From positions 1 to 36,337 of IMG/VR virus record IMGVR_UViG_3300006793_000111: a DNA stretch of 36,337 bases. One strand, written 5' to 3'. Each line of letters starts with the position of its first letter. The first letter of the stretch is position 1. The position numbers and the translations under genes are program-made. Shown one piece after another: positions 825 through 5,917 of this stretch. Below the pieces are notes generated by a model. The model saw only the letters and a list, made by a program, of their open reading frames with translations, searched no databases and was not told where the DNA came from. This DNA is from a virus.

Positions 825-1505
825 ATGCAGGTTTTAGAAATTATTGAAGGTGATTGTCTAAAAGTTTTAGAAACCTTTGCTGACAACTCAGTAGATCATG
901 TTATAACAAGTCCGCCATACAACATAGGTAGATCAAACAAAACTAAATCAAAACAAAAAGCTAAGTATGTTGGGTTTAAAGATAATAAAAAAAACTATTT
1001 CGATTGGTCTATAAAAGTTATTGATGAATTAATAAGAGTTTCAAGAGGTCATGTATTTTATAATGTCCAAGCTAATTACTACAATAAAAAAGATATCTAC
1101 AAATTGATTGGTCATTACCATAAAGATATTATACAAACTTTTATTTGGACTAAAGGTCATTCTTCCCCAGGATCAGAACCAGGTTCAATAAGCAATTTTT
1201 ACGAATATATCTTTGCTTTTTCTAATGACACAAGAATAAAAAGCAATAATAAGTTTACAACCAATACTATACACACACCTATTGGCGGAAGGTATCCTGG
1301 TTTCCACGCTGTAATGCACCAAGACATTTCCGATTTTCTGTTAGAAAACTTTACACAAGAAAAAGATTTAATACTTGATCCATTTCTAGGATCAGGCACA
1401 ACAGCTATAAGCTGCAAAAAAAAGAACAGAGATTTTATAGGAATAGAACTTGTACCAGAGTATATAAAATTAGCACAACAAAGAATAGAAGAAAGTGTTT
1501 TTTAA
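825..1505 (+). CDS. Beta-class DNA amino-methyltransferase (N4-cytosine or N6-adenine)
   Basis: SAM-dependent methyltransferase acting on the exocyclic amino group of cytosine or adenine. The catalytic motif TSPPYN (residues 28-33) comes before the SAM-binding motif DPFLGSGTT (185-193), which is the permuted order of the beta class. The TSPPY form is common among N4-cytosine enzymes, but adenine cannot be excluded. The C-terminal IELVPEYIKLAQQRI helix is typical of the family. I chose ATG 825 because the protein then begins MQVLEIIEGDCLKVL, the usual start of this family. ATG 798 and TTG 789 are in-frame alternatives, and none has a strong Shine-Dalgarno sequence. The stop overlaps the next ATG (TAATG at 1503-1507), so the two methyltransferases are probably translationally coupled. 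No restriction endonuclease is nearby, so protection of phage DNA is the likely role. Confidence 0.85.
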   Translation: MQVLEIIEGDCLKVLETFADNSVDHVITSPPYNIGRSNKTKSKQKAKYVGFKDNKKNYFDWSIKVIDELIRVSRGHVFYNVQANYYNKKDIYKLIGHYHKDIIQTFIWTKGHSSPGSEPGSISNFYEYIFAFSNDTRIKSNNKFTTNTIHTPIGGRYPGFHAVMHQDISDFLLENFTQEKDLILDPFLGSGTTAISCKKKNRDFIGIELVPEYIKLAQQRIEESVF

Positions 1506-3115
1506 TGAAGTTAGGTAGTATGTTCTCTGGCATAGGGGGTATAGAGCTTGGTTTGATGAGATCTGGTTTGGTTTCGGAAGTCGCTTGGCAAATAGATACA
1601 GATGAATACTGTACACAGGTTCTAGATAAAAAGTTTCCAAATTCTTTAGTACTAAATAAAAAAGTAGAAGACATAAACACTAAATATCTACCAGATGTAG
1701 ATATCATAACAGCAGGCTTTCCTTGTCAACCAGTAAGTGTTGCAGGGAATCAGAAAGGAATATTAGATGAAAGATGGTTATGGGATGAAGTTGAAAGATT
1801 TATTAATGAAATACGACCTCCAATCTTCGTCTTGGAAAATGTCCCAAACATCCTCAGAGCAAGCAATGGAGAAGCCATTAACCGTGTCTTCAAAGGTGTG
1901 GCCGAAATGCGGTATTATCGATTTGAATGGCAACTTATATCAGCAAAATTCGTTGGAGCAAGGCACAAAAGACAAAGATGGGTGGGAGTTGGAATCGTGG
2001 GAGACCCCAAACACTATGGATTACTTAGAGCCAAGGTCAGGGGAGGCTTTGGAGAGAGCGCTTTATCGTGGAGATCCAGAGAGGAAGAGCAAAAGAAAAG
2101 GTACTGGCAACTTACGAGAGAATCCCAAACTATGGCTAACTCCAACAACAATGGACAAGAAGGACGACTCACTGAAACATGCAACCAAACTGATGCAGGG
2201 GAAAAATATAAGATCAACAGGTCACAGAGTACAGAGAACATTGTCGGATCAAGTGTGGATGGATATGATAGAGAAAGATCCATCAATAATGAAGATTTAC
2301 CAAGATCACGAAATGGTGAGCAGACCTCTACTTCCCAAACAACAGGACTGGGTAGAATATCTGAGGAGTCAGACCTCAGCAACAAAACTACAAAAACTGA
2401 CAGGCATAAAGAAATCGACAGTAGATCACTGGTTCAGGAGGGACGACAAGGGGTTCAGTTATCCGAGTCTAGAGGACTGGGCGAAGATAAAACCTCACCT
2501 CAGAGATCTACAGTTCGACAAAGAAATGACGACAGTGGAAGTGACAGAGTGGACATCTCAAAAAGAGATGTGGCCGACACCCTCAACACAGGACAACGAA
2601 CACCTGAATATGAAACTGAACGACAAGGGACGGAGGGAAGCGAAAAATGGGGGACAGGATCGATCTCTGAACCTAGCAGACAAAGTACAAGTGAGGGAAC
2701 AGTTCTCAACACCAAGAGCGAGTCAGGCAACAAAGCCAGTGAACAAACAAGCTCCATCAGTGAAGAGTGGATCTCACGGATCTACTCTGGAACAGGATGT
2801 TGGGGAACGGAATCCAGAACTGATTGGTCAAAGGCTGAATCCAGAATGGGTAACCAGACTTATGGGATTTCCAGATGGTTGGCTGAACTAGGACTAGTTA
2901 ACAGCTGGGGTATAGATGATCAGTGGGAAAACAATCTATCTAGAGTCCGAAAAAGAAAAGATAACGATATTGATCGTTTAAAAGCACTTGGCAATGCTGT
3001 TGTTCCTCAATTTATGGAGCTGGTAGGAAGATTAATTATCAAATCTTTGGTAGAAGATACACTTGTTTTTGACGAAAATATTATAAAAAAACCAAAAAAA
3101 AATGAAAAAAAGTGA
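1505..3115 (+). CDS. C5-cytosine DNA methyltransferase (Dcm-like) with oversized variable region
   Basis: Methylates carbon 5 of cytosine using SAM. Motif I FSGIGGIE is at residues 7-14, the PCQPVS loop with catalytic C74 at 73-78, and ENV at 111-113. A motif VIII-like GARHKRQRW is near 151-159, and the motif X segment RLKALGNAVVPQ ends at 502. Between about 165 and 485, where the target-recognition domain belongs, there are some 320 residues rich in S, T, R, E, Q and G with few hydrophobics. This is far longer and less protein-like than a normal recognition domain. That stretch overlaps a second gene in the +1 frame (1767-2891), which shows better protein character there. The ends of this protein are clearly a real C5 methyltransferase. 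Whether the middle folds is uncertain. A low-complexity Lys/Asn tail ends the protein. Confidence 0.85.
   Translation: MKLGSMFSGIGGIELGLMRSGLVSEVAWQIDTDEYCTQVLDKKFPNSLVLNKKVEDINTKYLPDVDIITAGFPCQPVSVAGNQKGILDERWLWDEVERFINEIRPPIFVLENVPNILRASNGEAINRVFKGVAEMRYYRFEWQLISAKFVGARHKRQRWVGVGIVGDPKHYGLLRAKVRGGFGESALSWRSREEEQKKRYWQLTRESQTMANSNNNGQEGRLTETCNQTDAGEKYKINRSQSTENIVGSSVDGYDRERSINNEDLPRSRNGEQTSTSQTTGLGRISEESDLSNKTTKTDRHKEIDSRSLVQEGRQGVQLSESRGLGEDKTSPQRSTVRQRNDDSGSDRVDISKRDVADTLNTGQRTPEYETERQGTEGSEKWGTGSISEPSRQSTSEGTVLNTKSESGNKASEQTSSISEEWISRIYSGTGCWGTESRTDWSKAESRMGNQTYGISRWLAELGLVNSWGIDDQWENNLSRVRKRKDNDIDRLKALGNAVVPQFMELVGRLIIKSLVEDTLVFDENIIKKPKKNEKK
1767..2891 (+). CDS. Gene overprinted inside the C5 methyltransferase, +1 frame (WxTPxTxD / LMGFPDGW family)
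   Basis: A 374-codon frame lies wholly inside the C5-methyltransferase gene. Its ATG has its own Shine-Dalgarno tract AAAGGAA (1754-1760) six bases upstream. It reads as a normal tryptophan-rich protein. The N-terminal part has SSSWKMSQTS and WPKCGIIDLNGNLYQ. Three spaced W-x-TP-x-T motifs follow (WETPNTMDYLEPRS, LWLTPTTMD, MWPTPSTQD), then SLNLADKVQ, and the end is LNPEWVTRLMGFPDGWLN. From memory, these are hallmarks of a phage protein of unknown function found beside C5 methyltransferases; I cannot verify this here. From 1767 to about 2010 both frames carry family-like motifs, so the DNA looks truly dual-coding. One sampled 60-base block (2581-2640) is 50% GC, against 23% at 961-1020 in the neighbouring gene. 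Function unknown; a partner or specificity factor of the methyltransferase is a guess. Confidence 0.72.
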   Translation: MKDGYGMKLKDLLMKYDLQSSSWKMSQTSSEQAMEKPLTVSSKVWPKCGIIDLNGNLYQQNSLEQGTKDKDGWELESWETPNTMDYLEPRSGEALERALYRGDPERKSKRKGTGNLRENPKLWLTPTTMDKKDDSLKHATKLMQGKNIRSTGHRVQRTLSDQVWMDMIEKDPSIMKIYQDHEMVSRPLLPKQQDWVEYLRSQTSATKLQKLTGIKKSTVDHWFRRDDKGFSYPSLEDWAKIKPHLRDLQFDKEMTTVEVTEWTSQKEMWPTPSTQDNEHLNMKLNDKGRREAKNGGQDRSLNLADKVQVREQFSTPRASQATKPVNKQAPSVKSGSHGSTLEQDVGERNPELIGQRLNPEWVTRLMGFPDGWLN

Positions 3116-3248: not shown

Positions 3249-3308
3249 TAGAGTAGAGTAGAGTAGAGAAGAGTAGACTAGAGAAGAGTAGAGTAGACTA
3301 GAGTAGAA
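3249..3308 (+). repeat. Twelve tandem 5-bp units of the TAGAG type
   Basis: Units in order: four TAGAG, then AAGAG, TAGAC, TAGAG, AAGAG, TAGAG, TAGAC, TAGAG, TAGAA. The array lies in the 5' leader just before the Shine-Dalgarno of the 3325 gene. The variant units recur in a loose 15-20 bp pattern. Purine-rich on the + strand. Confidence 0.85.
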
Positions 3309-3324: not shown

Positions 3325-3525
3325 ATGGATAAATATTTAGTATCAAGACTAGTAAGGGAAGATTATATCATTCCTGCTGAAACACAAAAACAAGCAATAA
3401 AAACTTTTAAAGATATAACTGTTTTTAAAGATAGTTCTATTAGCGACATGGTGTCTCAACATAATATTCAGTTATACACAGATATCATCAACGATGCACC
3501 TATACTAGAAATAGAAGAACAATGA
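3325..3525 (+). CDS. Small protein of unknown function (66 aa)
   Basis: I do not recognise this protein. It begins MDKYLVSRLVREDYIIPAET and has mixed polarity with no membrane segment, so it is probably a small soluble protein. A strong Shine-Dalgarno (AAAGGAG, 3312-3318) lies six bases before the ATG. The gene is first of three tightly overlapping small genes (3325, 3522, 3695), read downstream of a palindrome and a pentanucleotide repeat that probably control the group. The stop overlaps the next start in an ATGA arrangement (3522-3525). Confidence 0.7.
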   Translation: MDKYLVSRLVREDYIIPAETQKQAIKTFKDITVFKDSSISDMVSQHNIQLYTDIINDAPILEIEEQ

Positions 3526-4662: not shown

Positions 4663-4860
4663 ATGGAGGATGTAGACATAGCAGCGAGAAAAACTGTTCT
4701 AAACTTAGAACAACTTATGGCTAGAGTCGATTATAAATACAACAGAGAACAAAGGTGTCTTGTTTGTAATTATCAATATAGAAGACACGAAGATGGATTA
4801 CCTTGTGTAGCCGATGATGAGAAAAAAAAGATAGTGATGGTGAATTATGGAACAGATTGA
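4663..4860 (+). CDS. Small protein with a zinc-site-like Cys/His cluster (65 aa)
   Basis: Not recognised as a named family. After a helical N-terminal half it has C32-x2-C35, H42 and C48 (RCLVCNYQYRRHEDGLPC), a spacing able to hold one zinc ion, so a small nucleic-acid- or protein-binding zinc protein is plausible. Expression appears to start from a -10 box six bases before the ATG. Its last 14 bases overlap the following gene, which suggests coupled translation with the HTH/methyltransferase-like protein. Confidence 0.65.
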   Translation: MEDVDIAARKTVLNLEQLMARVDYKYNREQRCLVCNYQYRRHEDGLPCVADDEKKKIVMVNYGTD

Positions 4861-5917
4861 ATTAGCTAAAATGCAATCTATAAGTTTAAATTTAAGAGAT
4901 GATCTTGAATACGAAGAGTGGGTAGAAATAGGTGAAGCTTTAACTAATCAGGCAAAACACATTATGTGGTGGCTTGGTGATTGGTGGAACTATGGAGATC
5001 GTAAGTATGGCGAGTTGGCTTCTCAAGCTTTAGACTTTGGCATTCCTTACTCTACTTTTAGTAACGCTGCTTATGTTTCCAATAAAATACCTTTAGAAAG
5101 AAGGGTTGCAGAGTTGTCTTGGACTCATCATCACGAAGTTGCTTATTTAGAAGATAACGAAAAAATAGACAAATTGCTTTTAAATGCGTATGAAGATTCC
5201 CTATCAGTTAGAGAGTTGAGAGCAGAAGTAAAAAAAGAAAAGTTTAAATCTGTTAATCAAAATAATGAAAGTTATGACTTGATAGAACAAGCTGGTGTTA
5301 ATTTAAAAACATCAAATGTATGGAGCTTTGGTAAACCAGATGAGAAGTACGGTACAGAAAGTCCATACAAGACACCACCTCAAATGATCGCTAACTTGCT
5401 TTACTGGTTTACAGATGAAAGTGACAGCAAAATTGTAGATATTACAGATAAATACCAAGTTACCTATGATTTAGGAACTGCACTGGGTTATGAAGTAGAA
5501 AGTTTTGATCTTAATCCAGGTTTAACAACTACAAGAGTAATGCCTCAAGACTTATCTGTTGGCCAGTTGCCTAAAGTCCTCACAGAAGCAGACATTATTG
5601 TTTTTAATATGCTAGATTTTATGGATAACCCTGAAGATCTTGATCCAGCATCTTTTCAAAGACAAATAATTATTGACCTAGGTGTGATGATGAAAAGAGG
5701 ATCTAAATTATTTTTGATTACACAAGACTTTGAAGATATGAAGCTAGAAAATTTATTTTCTCTAATTTATGGAGAAGATGACTTTGCTGTGAACGAGTTC
5801 ATCTCTACTACTAATAAAAAAATGTACAACAAAGATGAACAAGCGATCGCTATTAAGAATAAAATGCTTTTAAACAAGCTAGCTTATATATTAGTTTTAG
5901 AAAACCAATCAGAATAG
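4847..5917 (+). CDS. Helical DNA-binding-type domain fused to a degenerate methyltransferase-like domain
   Basis: 356 residues. The N-terminal third (about 24-130) has WWLGDWWNYGDRKYGE, PYSTFSNAAYVSNKIP and LSWTHHHEVAYL, then SVRELRAEV. I know this arrangement from phage and plasmid proteins that join a helical DNA-binding-type domain to methyltransferases. The C-terminal half (about 170-350) follows the layout of a DNA methyltransferase: TPPQMIANLLYWF, then KIVDITDKYQVTYDLGTALGYEVESFDLNPG where the SAM loop should be. The position of the catalytic D/N-PP-Y motif instead reads DIIVFNMLDF (249-258). Both the glycine-rich SAM loop and the catalytic tetrad are lost. It may be an inactive regulator or DNA-binding protein derived from a methyltransferase. 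It starts within the previous gene. Confidence 0.6.
   Translation: MEQIELAKMQSISLNLRDDLEYEEWVEIGEALTNQAKHIMWWLGDWWNYGDRKYGELASQALDFGIPYSTFSNAAYVSNKIPLERRVAELSWTHHHEVAYLEDNEKIDKLLLNAYEDSLSVRELRAEVKKEKFKSVNQNNESYDLIEQAGVNLKTSNVWSFGKPDEKYGTESPYKTPPQMIANLLYWFTDESDSKIVDITDKYQVTYDLGTALGYEVESFDLNPGLTTTRVMPQDLSVGQLPKVLTEADIIVFNMLDFMDNPEDLDPASFQRQIIIDLGVMMKRGSKLFLITQDFEDMKLENLFSLIYGEDDFAVNEFISTTNKKMYNKDEQAIAIKNKMLLNKLAYILVLENQSE

Follow-up and report, generated by a model that had tools for sequence, protein, structure and literature searches.

A gene nested in the +1 frame of a phage C5-cytosine methyltransferase gene probably supplies motif IX and target recognition

The locus described here raises the question of whether one stretch of phage DNA encodes two real proteins in overlapping frames of the same strand and, if it does, what the inner protein contributes. 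It lies in a 36.3-kb viral contig from a marine phage (36,337 nt, hereafter called the window) in which terminase, portal, capsid and tape-measure genes are present. Comparison of the locus with named phages by blastn gave no match. The outer gene, which we call alpha, matched the profiles PF00145 (1.6e-44) and phrog_363 (3.2e-49). The inner gene, beta, matched phrog_1008 (‘DNA methyltransferase’) at 3e-11 and two further PHROGs weakly, and no family in Pfam or NCBIfam matched it. The original prediction, made from the letters of the DNA, had foreseen recognizable families for both translations and an unrelated one for beta; the searches agreed for alpha, whereas the only strong match of beta carried a methyltransferase name. 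The features of the locus are as follows.

1505..3115, + strand: outer gene (alpha), C5-cytosine methyltransferase catalytic chain, 536 aa, with motifs I, IV, VI, VIII and X and without IX
1523..1540, + strand: alpha motif I, FSGIGG
1715..1732, + strand: alpha motif IV, GFPCQP, with the catalytic Cys
1754..1760, + strand: Shine-Dalgarno AAAGGAA of beta, ending 6 nt 5' of the ATG at 1767
1767..2891, + strand: inner gene (beta), +1 frame, 374 aa, with TP cassettes, helix-turn-helix module and motif IX
1832..1846, + strand: alpha motif VI, LENVP, whose +1 reading is part of the beta sequence SSWKMSQ
1955..1981, + strand: alpha motif VIII, GARHKRQRW
1998..2021, + strand: TP cassette motif 1, WETPNTMD, inner frame
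2001..2890, + strand: alpha linker, the outer-frame reading of the beta gene, with drifting amino acids and stop-free
2133..2156, + strand: TP cassette motif 2, WLTPTTMD, inner frame
2322..2501, + strand: helix-turn-helix module, inner frame (outer frame in L024-L036 and L043-L047)
2571..2594, + strand: TP cassette motif 3, WPTPSTQD, inner frame
2703..2726, + strand: TP cassette motif 4, a degenerate fourth copy, FSTPRASQ, inner frame
2835..2882, + strand: motif IX, LNPEWVTRLMGFPDGW, inner frame, at the C-terminus of beta
2987..3010, + strand: core of motif X, LGNAVVPQ, read in the outer frame; its L-G-N and P do not vary among 34 relatives

The methyltransferase frame had been described as open and as keeping motifs I, IV, VI, VIII and X; all of these (with PC for motif IV and ENV for motif VI) were located, and they were invariant in 34 relatives. 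An N4/N6-type DNA methyltransferase gene (789-1505) lies immediately 5' of alpha, and its stop overlaps the alpha start (TAATG), suggesting that the two methyltransferases are translationally coupled. Near-perfect short direct repeats (gagta/gacta units) were seen at 3249-3306, just 5' of an ORF at 3325, and a 356-aa ORF at 4847-5917, preceding the terminase gene, had no PHROG match.

The +1 ORF at 1767-2891 within alpha is a true gene. We compared alpha four-fold sites within clade A (14 distinct close relatives) and within its sister clade B (12 sequences), with the first 78 inner codons as the region inside the overlap. In clade A, differences at these sites were 0.415 before the beta start, 0.084 inside and 0.525 past the beta stop, and the corresponding values in clade B were 0.379, 0.087 and 0.385. 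Alpha-synonymous change thus fell about five-fold at the beta start and recovered past the beta stop. When the sites were examined in eight-codon blocks, the fall was placed at alpha codons 81-89, which correspond to the beta Shine-Dalgarno and start, with the step at alpha codon 88/89. The contrast was significant in single pairs of sequences (Fisher P from 0.009 to 0.00016 in five pairs), while the most distant pair tried, which reached across clades, gave P 0.2. A small Paenibacillus set showed similar synonymous-site behaviour.

Over the remaining overlap, differences piled up at inner third positions (0.141, 0.090 and 0.349 for positions 1, 2 and 3), and inner-frame omega was 0.05-0.15 in close pairs. 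The beta ORF was open in all close relatives, and its Shine-Dalgarno read AAAGGAG or AAAGGAA in 16 of 16 of them and was kept in related clades too. With the alpha protein held fixed and synonymous codons assigned at random, 19.3 stops were expected in the inner frame and the minimum in 20,000 draws was 6; none was seen. The coordinates, the stop statistics and the substitution tests bear out the original prediction of a full gene of 374 codons overprinted in the +1 frame of a C5-cytosine methyltransferase gene, with its own Shine-Dalgarno ending six bases 5' of the ATG. The outcomes that had been named as refuting this prediction did not occur: relatives have homologues of beta with uninterrupted frames, and the inner frame is under selection.

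Motif resemblance alone was no evidence for beta, and we therefore relied on the substitution tests. A weak N-terminal +1 similarity in distant methyltransferases was considered as proof of beta and was rejected, as it arises mechanically when alpha motifs VI and VIII are read in +1. Because the inner N-terminal likeness across distant phages consists of +1 readings of conserved alpha motifs, it is not independent evidence. SSWKMSQ is the +1 reading of the alpha motif VI sequence FVLENVP, and TP motifs are +1 readings of ‘ADTD’-like repeats. It had been proposed that family-like sequence in both frames marks two real proteins; the two proteins stand, through the substitution tests, whereas part of the likeness is mechanical +1 reading.

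Alpha-frame omega was 0.13 over inner codons 1-50, 0.66 over codons 51-100 and above 1.8 beyond about codon 100; alpha is constrained up to motif VIII, and past about inner codon 100 its amino acids are without constraint. We rejected the linker omega above 1 as a sign of positive selection, since it follows from the tighter constraint on inner second positions than on first positions. With the beta protein fixed and codons drawn according to phage codon usage, 33.1 outer-frame stops were expected past motif VIII, with a minimum of 17, and none was seen. T was present at 0 of 107 wobble positions preceding AA/AG/GA codons, versus 39% in other genes. Alpha is open throughout the overlap and motif X follows in the same frame, so the simplest reading of alpha is a single chain with a linker kept free of stops. 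The low-complexity S/T/R/E/Q region, described in the original prediction as the recognition region, is this linker. In one locus (L023, 2274-2276) a linker stop breaks the outer frame, and a separate ORF further downstream, still in that frame, encodes motif X.

In a C5-methyltransferase, motif IX is expected to follow the recognition domain and to precede motif X; at this locus motif IX was present in the inner frame only. The C-terminus of beta, LNPEWVTRLMGFPDGW, resembles motif IX of M.HhaI, LHPRECARVMGYPDSY, in form and lies just 5' of motif X in the DNA. Placed through collinearity and intermediates, it is, as judged from sequence, the C5-methyltransferase motif IX that is missing from alpha. 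Variation at motif IX in 83 diverse nested loci was concentrated at inner-frame wobble positions, with G (0,.02,.67), P (0, 0,.66) and G (0,.17,.62), and because it falls there the inner frame is the selected one at this motif. In the M. abscessus prophage prophiT46-2 and in mycobacteriophage relatives, the motif IX block shares a single frame with motif VIII before it and motif X after it, and in one such single chain (L278) it reads ‘...ERLNPDWVEWLMGYPISWTD...LMALGNSVVP’, in frame with motifs I-VIII and X. A profile built from nested loci only matched the single-chain motif IX block at 1e-12 to 1e-5 and the stretch RRLTPVECERLMGFPDGWTD of an ordinary C5-methyltransferase at 1.6e-8. The motif IX of M.HhaI, which served as a yardstick, did not match the nested-locus profile significantly (E 0.2). 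In a further locus, L069, motif IX seemed to be fused in frame to motifs I-VIII; it was rejected as a natural fusion because a one-base shift displaces both frames together. Beta carries motif IX and recognition-like cassettes of the C5-methyltransferase itself, and its assignment to an unrelated family did not survive.

The motif WxTPxTxD had been reported three times in beta, and we found it at 1998, 2133 and 2571, along with the degenerate fourth copy. Among 154 distinct inner proteins there were mostly one to four TP units per protein. The spacing of the W/L-x-T/S-P units had a median of 44 residues (10-90%, 30-116), and the last unit stood a median of 44 residues ahead of motif IX. The pattern P[STCA]PT gave 114 matches in inner proteins versus 4 in shuffles. 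The recognition domain of C5-methyltransferases contains a TL motif, (YFW)x(RK)x5P(STCA)PT(ILV)(TASV), located 10-50 residues before motif IX (PMC2413257). The P[STCA]PT of the cassettes resembles this published motif, and its position and spacing before motif IX fit. The strict TL core consensus was found in 2 cassettes only, and because of this we do no more than suggest that the TP cassettes are recognition units; by analogy, they may be likened to the multi-specific phage enzymes studied by Trautner. Single-chain mycobacteriophage enzymes (L158, 2998-4740, and L159, 2998-4524) contain up to five TP cassettes, and near-identical cassettes recur across phages in differing number and order, as if shuffled.

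AlphaFold modelled the single-chain form with an M.HhaI-like fold and the motif IX-X part above pLDDT 90; for its cassette region (residues 188-248) a fold was not predicted. The model of beta alone had a mean pLDDT of 55.5, with low confidence except in the helix-turn-helix module, and this poor fold might reflect a dependent subunit or equally a poor model. A fold search with the beta model returned weak helix-turn-helix matches only, and an inner-family sequence profile had no meaningful match in the PDB.

The helix-turn-helix module of beta (residues 113-276) was found in the outer frame, after the beta stop, in loci L024-L036 and L043-L047, with 48-65% identity between inner and outer placements in the sequences aligned. 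The outer chains of this clade have TP repeats in their own frame too. With the module in either frame and TP repeats in either chain, the two chains therefore share modules, and the placement of the module on one chain or the other is evidence of joint action within one complex. Twort-like phages also have the module, inserted into their N4/N6 methyltransferases. In Staphylococcus phage Alsa_4 (L083, 1922-3064), an N4/N6-type DNA methyltransferase has the insert at about 41% identity, such that one recognition-like module is common to two methyltransferase classes.

We consider it likely that the locus encodes one C5-cytosine methyltransferase as two polypeptides from overlapping frames, a catalytic alpha and a nested beta with motif IX and target recognition. 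Both frames are selected, motif IX lies in beta and motif X in alpha, and the order of these parts is matched in single-chain relatives. Alpha would supply the AdoMet-binding and catalytic core (motifs I-VIII) plus motif X. Beta, made from its own Shine-Dalgarno, would supply the small domain, consisting of motif IX and the target-recognition cassettes; its recognition part would comprise the WxTPxTxD units, which in the family usually follow one another at 35-50 aa, and here the helix-turn-helix module as well. From these findings we infer that the two chains form a complex and act jointly, giving an active, site-specific enzyme that would mark the phage genome, probably in an anti-restriction role against the host. 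The alpha stretch that spells beta would be a tolerant linker, kept stop-free so that motif X stays in line with motifs I-VIII. The suggestion that beta has taken over the recognition role is probably correct, with the cassettes and motif IX in beta and the alpha region unconstrained.

Other functions for beta can be imagined. If alpha, which retains the catalytic motifs and motif X, were a complete enzyme, beta could be an accessory specificity or stimulating factor. This is unlikely, because alpha is without motif IX and without a conserved recognition region, its frame drifting there, and because the motif IX block of single-chain relatives is held by beta. Less probable still is that beta is a separate phage protein, an anti-restriction protein or a regulator, whose gene just happens to overlap that of the methyltransferase. 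The helix-turn-helix module and the separate start of beta would suit such a protein, and it also counts in its favour that the PHROG name is by association only. Against it stand the homology and position of motif IX, the occurrence of modules in either frame, single-chain versions in other phages and the pairing of beta with alpha wherever the contig lets it be seen.

Programmed ribosomal frameshifting would join the frames, from alpha to inner and back, into one chain, and the motif order along the DNA is indeed that of a single-chain enzyme. We regard this as very improbable, as two shifts would be required, beta has its own conserved Shine-Dalgarno and start, and alpha is open across the whole linker, which would be unneeded with a shift. 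Least credible of all is that the inner ORF is no gene and only the shadow of a conserved methyltransferase, open through codon bias. As a shadow would predict, several beta motifs arise from reading alpha motifs VI and VIII in +1, and almost all C5-methyltransferases tested showed, in their +1 frame, weak likeness to the N-terminal region of beta. However, the five-fold fall in alpha-synonymous change runs exactly from the beta start, the inner frame is conserved past motif VIII where alpha is not, and both the wobble pattern at motif IX and the conserved beta Shine-Dalgarno speak for a gene. The shadow reading is already refuted by the substitution data.

The nested form of the two-polypeptide methyltransferase is not confined to the window phage. 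A scan that used only the alpha N-terminal profile, and so took no account of the inner frame, yielded 80 viral loci. Motif IX was in the +1 ORF in 73 of them, in the alpha ORF in the same style in 3 and canonical in 1, and none was found in 3; the 73 of 80 speaks for this subfamily alone, because the seed alignment came from nested loci. In the sample taken, more loci of this phage methyltransferase family are nested than have any other architecture. Usually left unannotated in phages, it was found in Paenibacillus phages Harrison and Diva, Salmonella SEN4, Acinetobacter ABMM1, Lacticaseibacillus R9.1, Stenotrophomonas SOVA965, Microcystis Mwe-JY08 and phage C72C1. A +1 ORF of like kind is present in Erwinia EhrS_59, although the motif IX profile did not score it. 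In the Streptomyces/Mycobacterium phages phiBT1, Sebastisaurus, Inventum, Smooch and Noelle, it is the 3' end of alpha that the +1 ORF overlaps, and motif X is encoded in this ORF as well. Our searches of the literature outside subscription journals returned no earlier description of the nested arrangement across phages.

Several individual loci deserve mention. In phage phiBT1 (L084, 1684-2616), gp9.1 is annotated ‘DNA methylase may be inactive’. It lacks TP cassettes and motifs IX and X, all of which are encoded in an unannotated +1 ORF that overlaps it; with these parts supplied by the +1 ORF, the pair may well be active. A Bacteroides finegoldii plasmid record (L108, 1705-2766) has a long, partly annotated ORF of inner type with TP cassettes and motif IX, which adjoins a short ‘DNA cytosine methyltransferase’, and a Hachiman defence gene is nearby. 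In 39 mycobacteriophage-type enzymes (L132-L182), single-chain forms too, there was a local loss of synonymous variation at alpha codons about 135-180, hinting that a short +1 product may persist in mycobacteriophage-type single-chain enzymes.

More broadly, we lean towards the view that many of the C5-methyltransferases of phages consist of two subunits, with the recognition subunit in a second frame of the catalytic gene. Specificity would lie in an array of exchangeable, multi-specific cassettes, modules could move between frames over evolution, and the catalytic chain would tolerate a long shadow linker under selection for nothing but the absence of stops. If this is true, many phage methyltransferase annotations miss their specificity subunit. 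The two-polypeptide reading would explain a ‘phage protein of unknown function’ as half of an enzyme. It predicts that specificity is misassigned when the methyltransferase ORF is cloned or annotated by itself, and that ‘synonymous’ recoding would break the enzyme. The locus is also an unusually clear long same-strand overlap, in which two conserved genes share about 1.1 kb with selection on both.

Among known proteins, phrog_1008 is named ‘DNA methyltransferase’ without a role, and we read it here as the motif IX/recognition subunit. Paenibacillus phage Diva gp49/gp50 is likewise a nested +1 gene, annotated ‘g49 internal gene’, but it is only distantly similar and is without the helix-turn-helix module. 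Single-chain phage C5-methyltransferases (L132-L161, L278 and prophiT46-2) have the same motif IX block and order, all in one frame, and their mycobacteriophage forms have the same TP cassettes as beta.

The small gene of M.EcoHK31I (YGGCCR, E. coli) reportedly lies inside the large gene in another frame (Lee et al. 1995). By its published description, M.EcoHK31I is likewise a two-polypeptide C5-methyltransferase with motifs I-VIII and X in the large chain and motif IX in the small chain. Motif IX alone is in its small chain and the rest in the large chain, in which its predicted recognition domain has also been placed (PMC3404938). In the window, by contrast, the cassettes are in the inner chain, the outer frame is unconstrained there and there is an extra helix-turn-helix module. 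Because the recognition region lies elsewhere, we do not file the window locus as a member with M.EcoHK31I and say only that it would work alike. M.AquI (CYCGRG) is also a two-chain C5-methyltransferase, split in the variable region (PMC3404938). Its small chain contains part of the variable region with motifs IX and X, whereas motif X of the window is in the large chain; the Mycobacterium/Streptomyces phage pairs (L084-L087 and L095) have an AquI-like motif distribution. Single chain, AquI-like split and nested gene would thus form a natural series for dividing a protein between frames.
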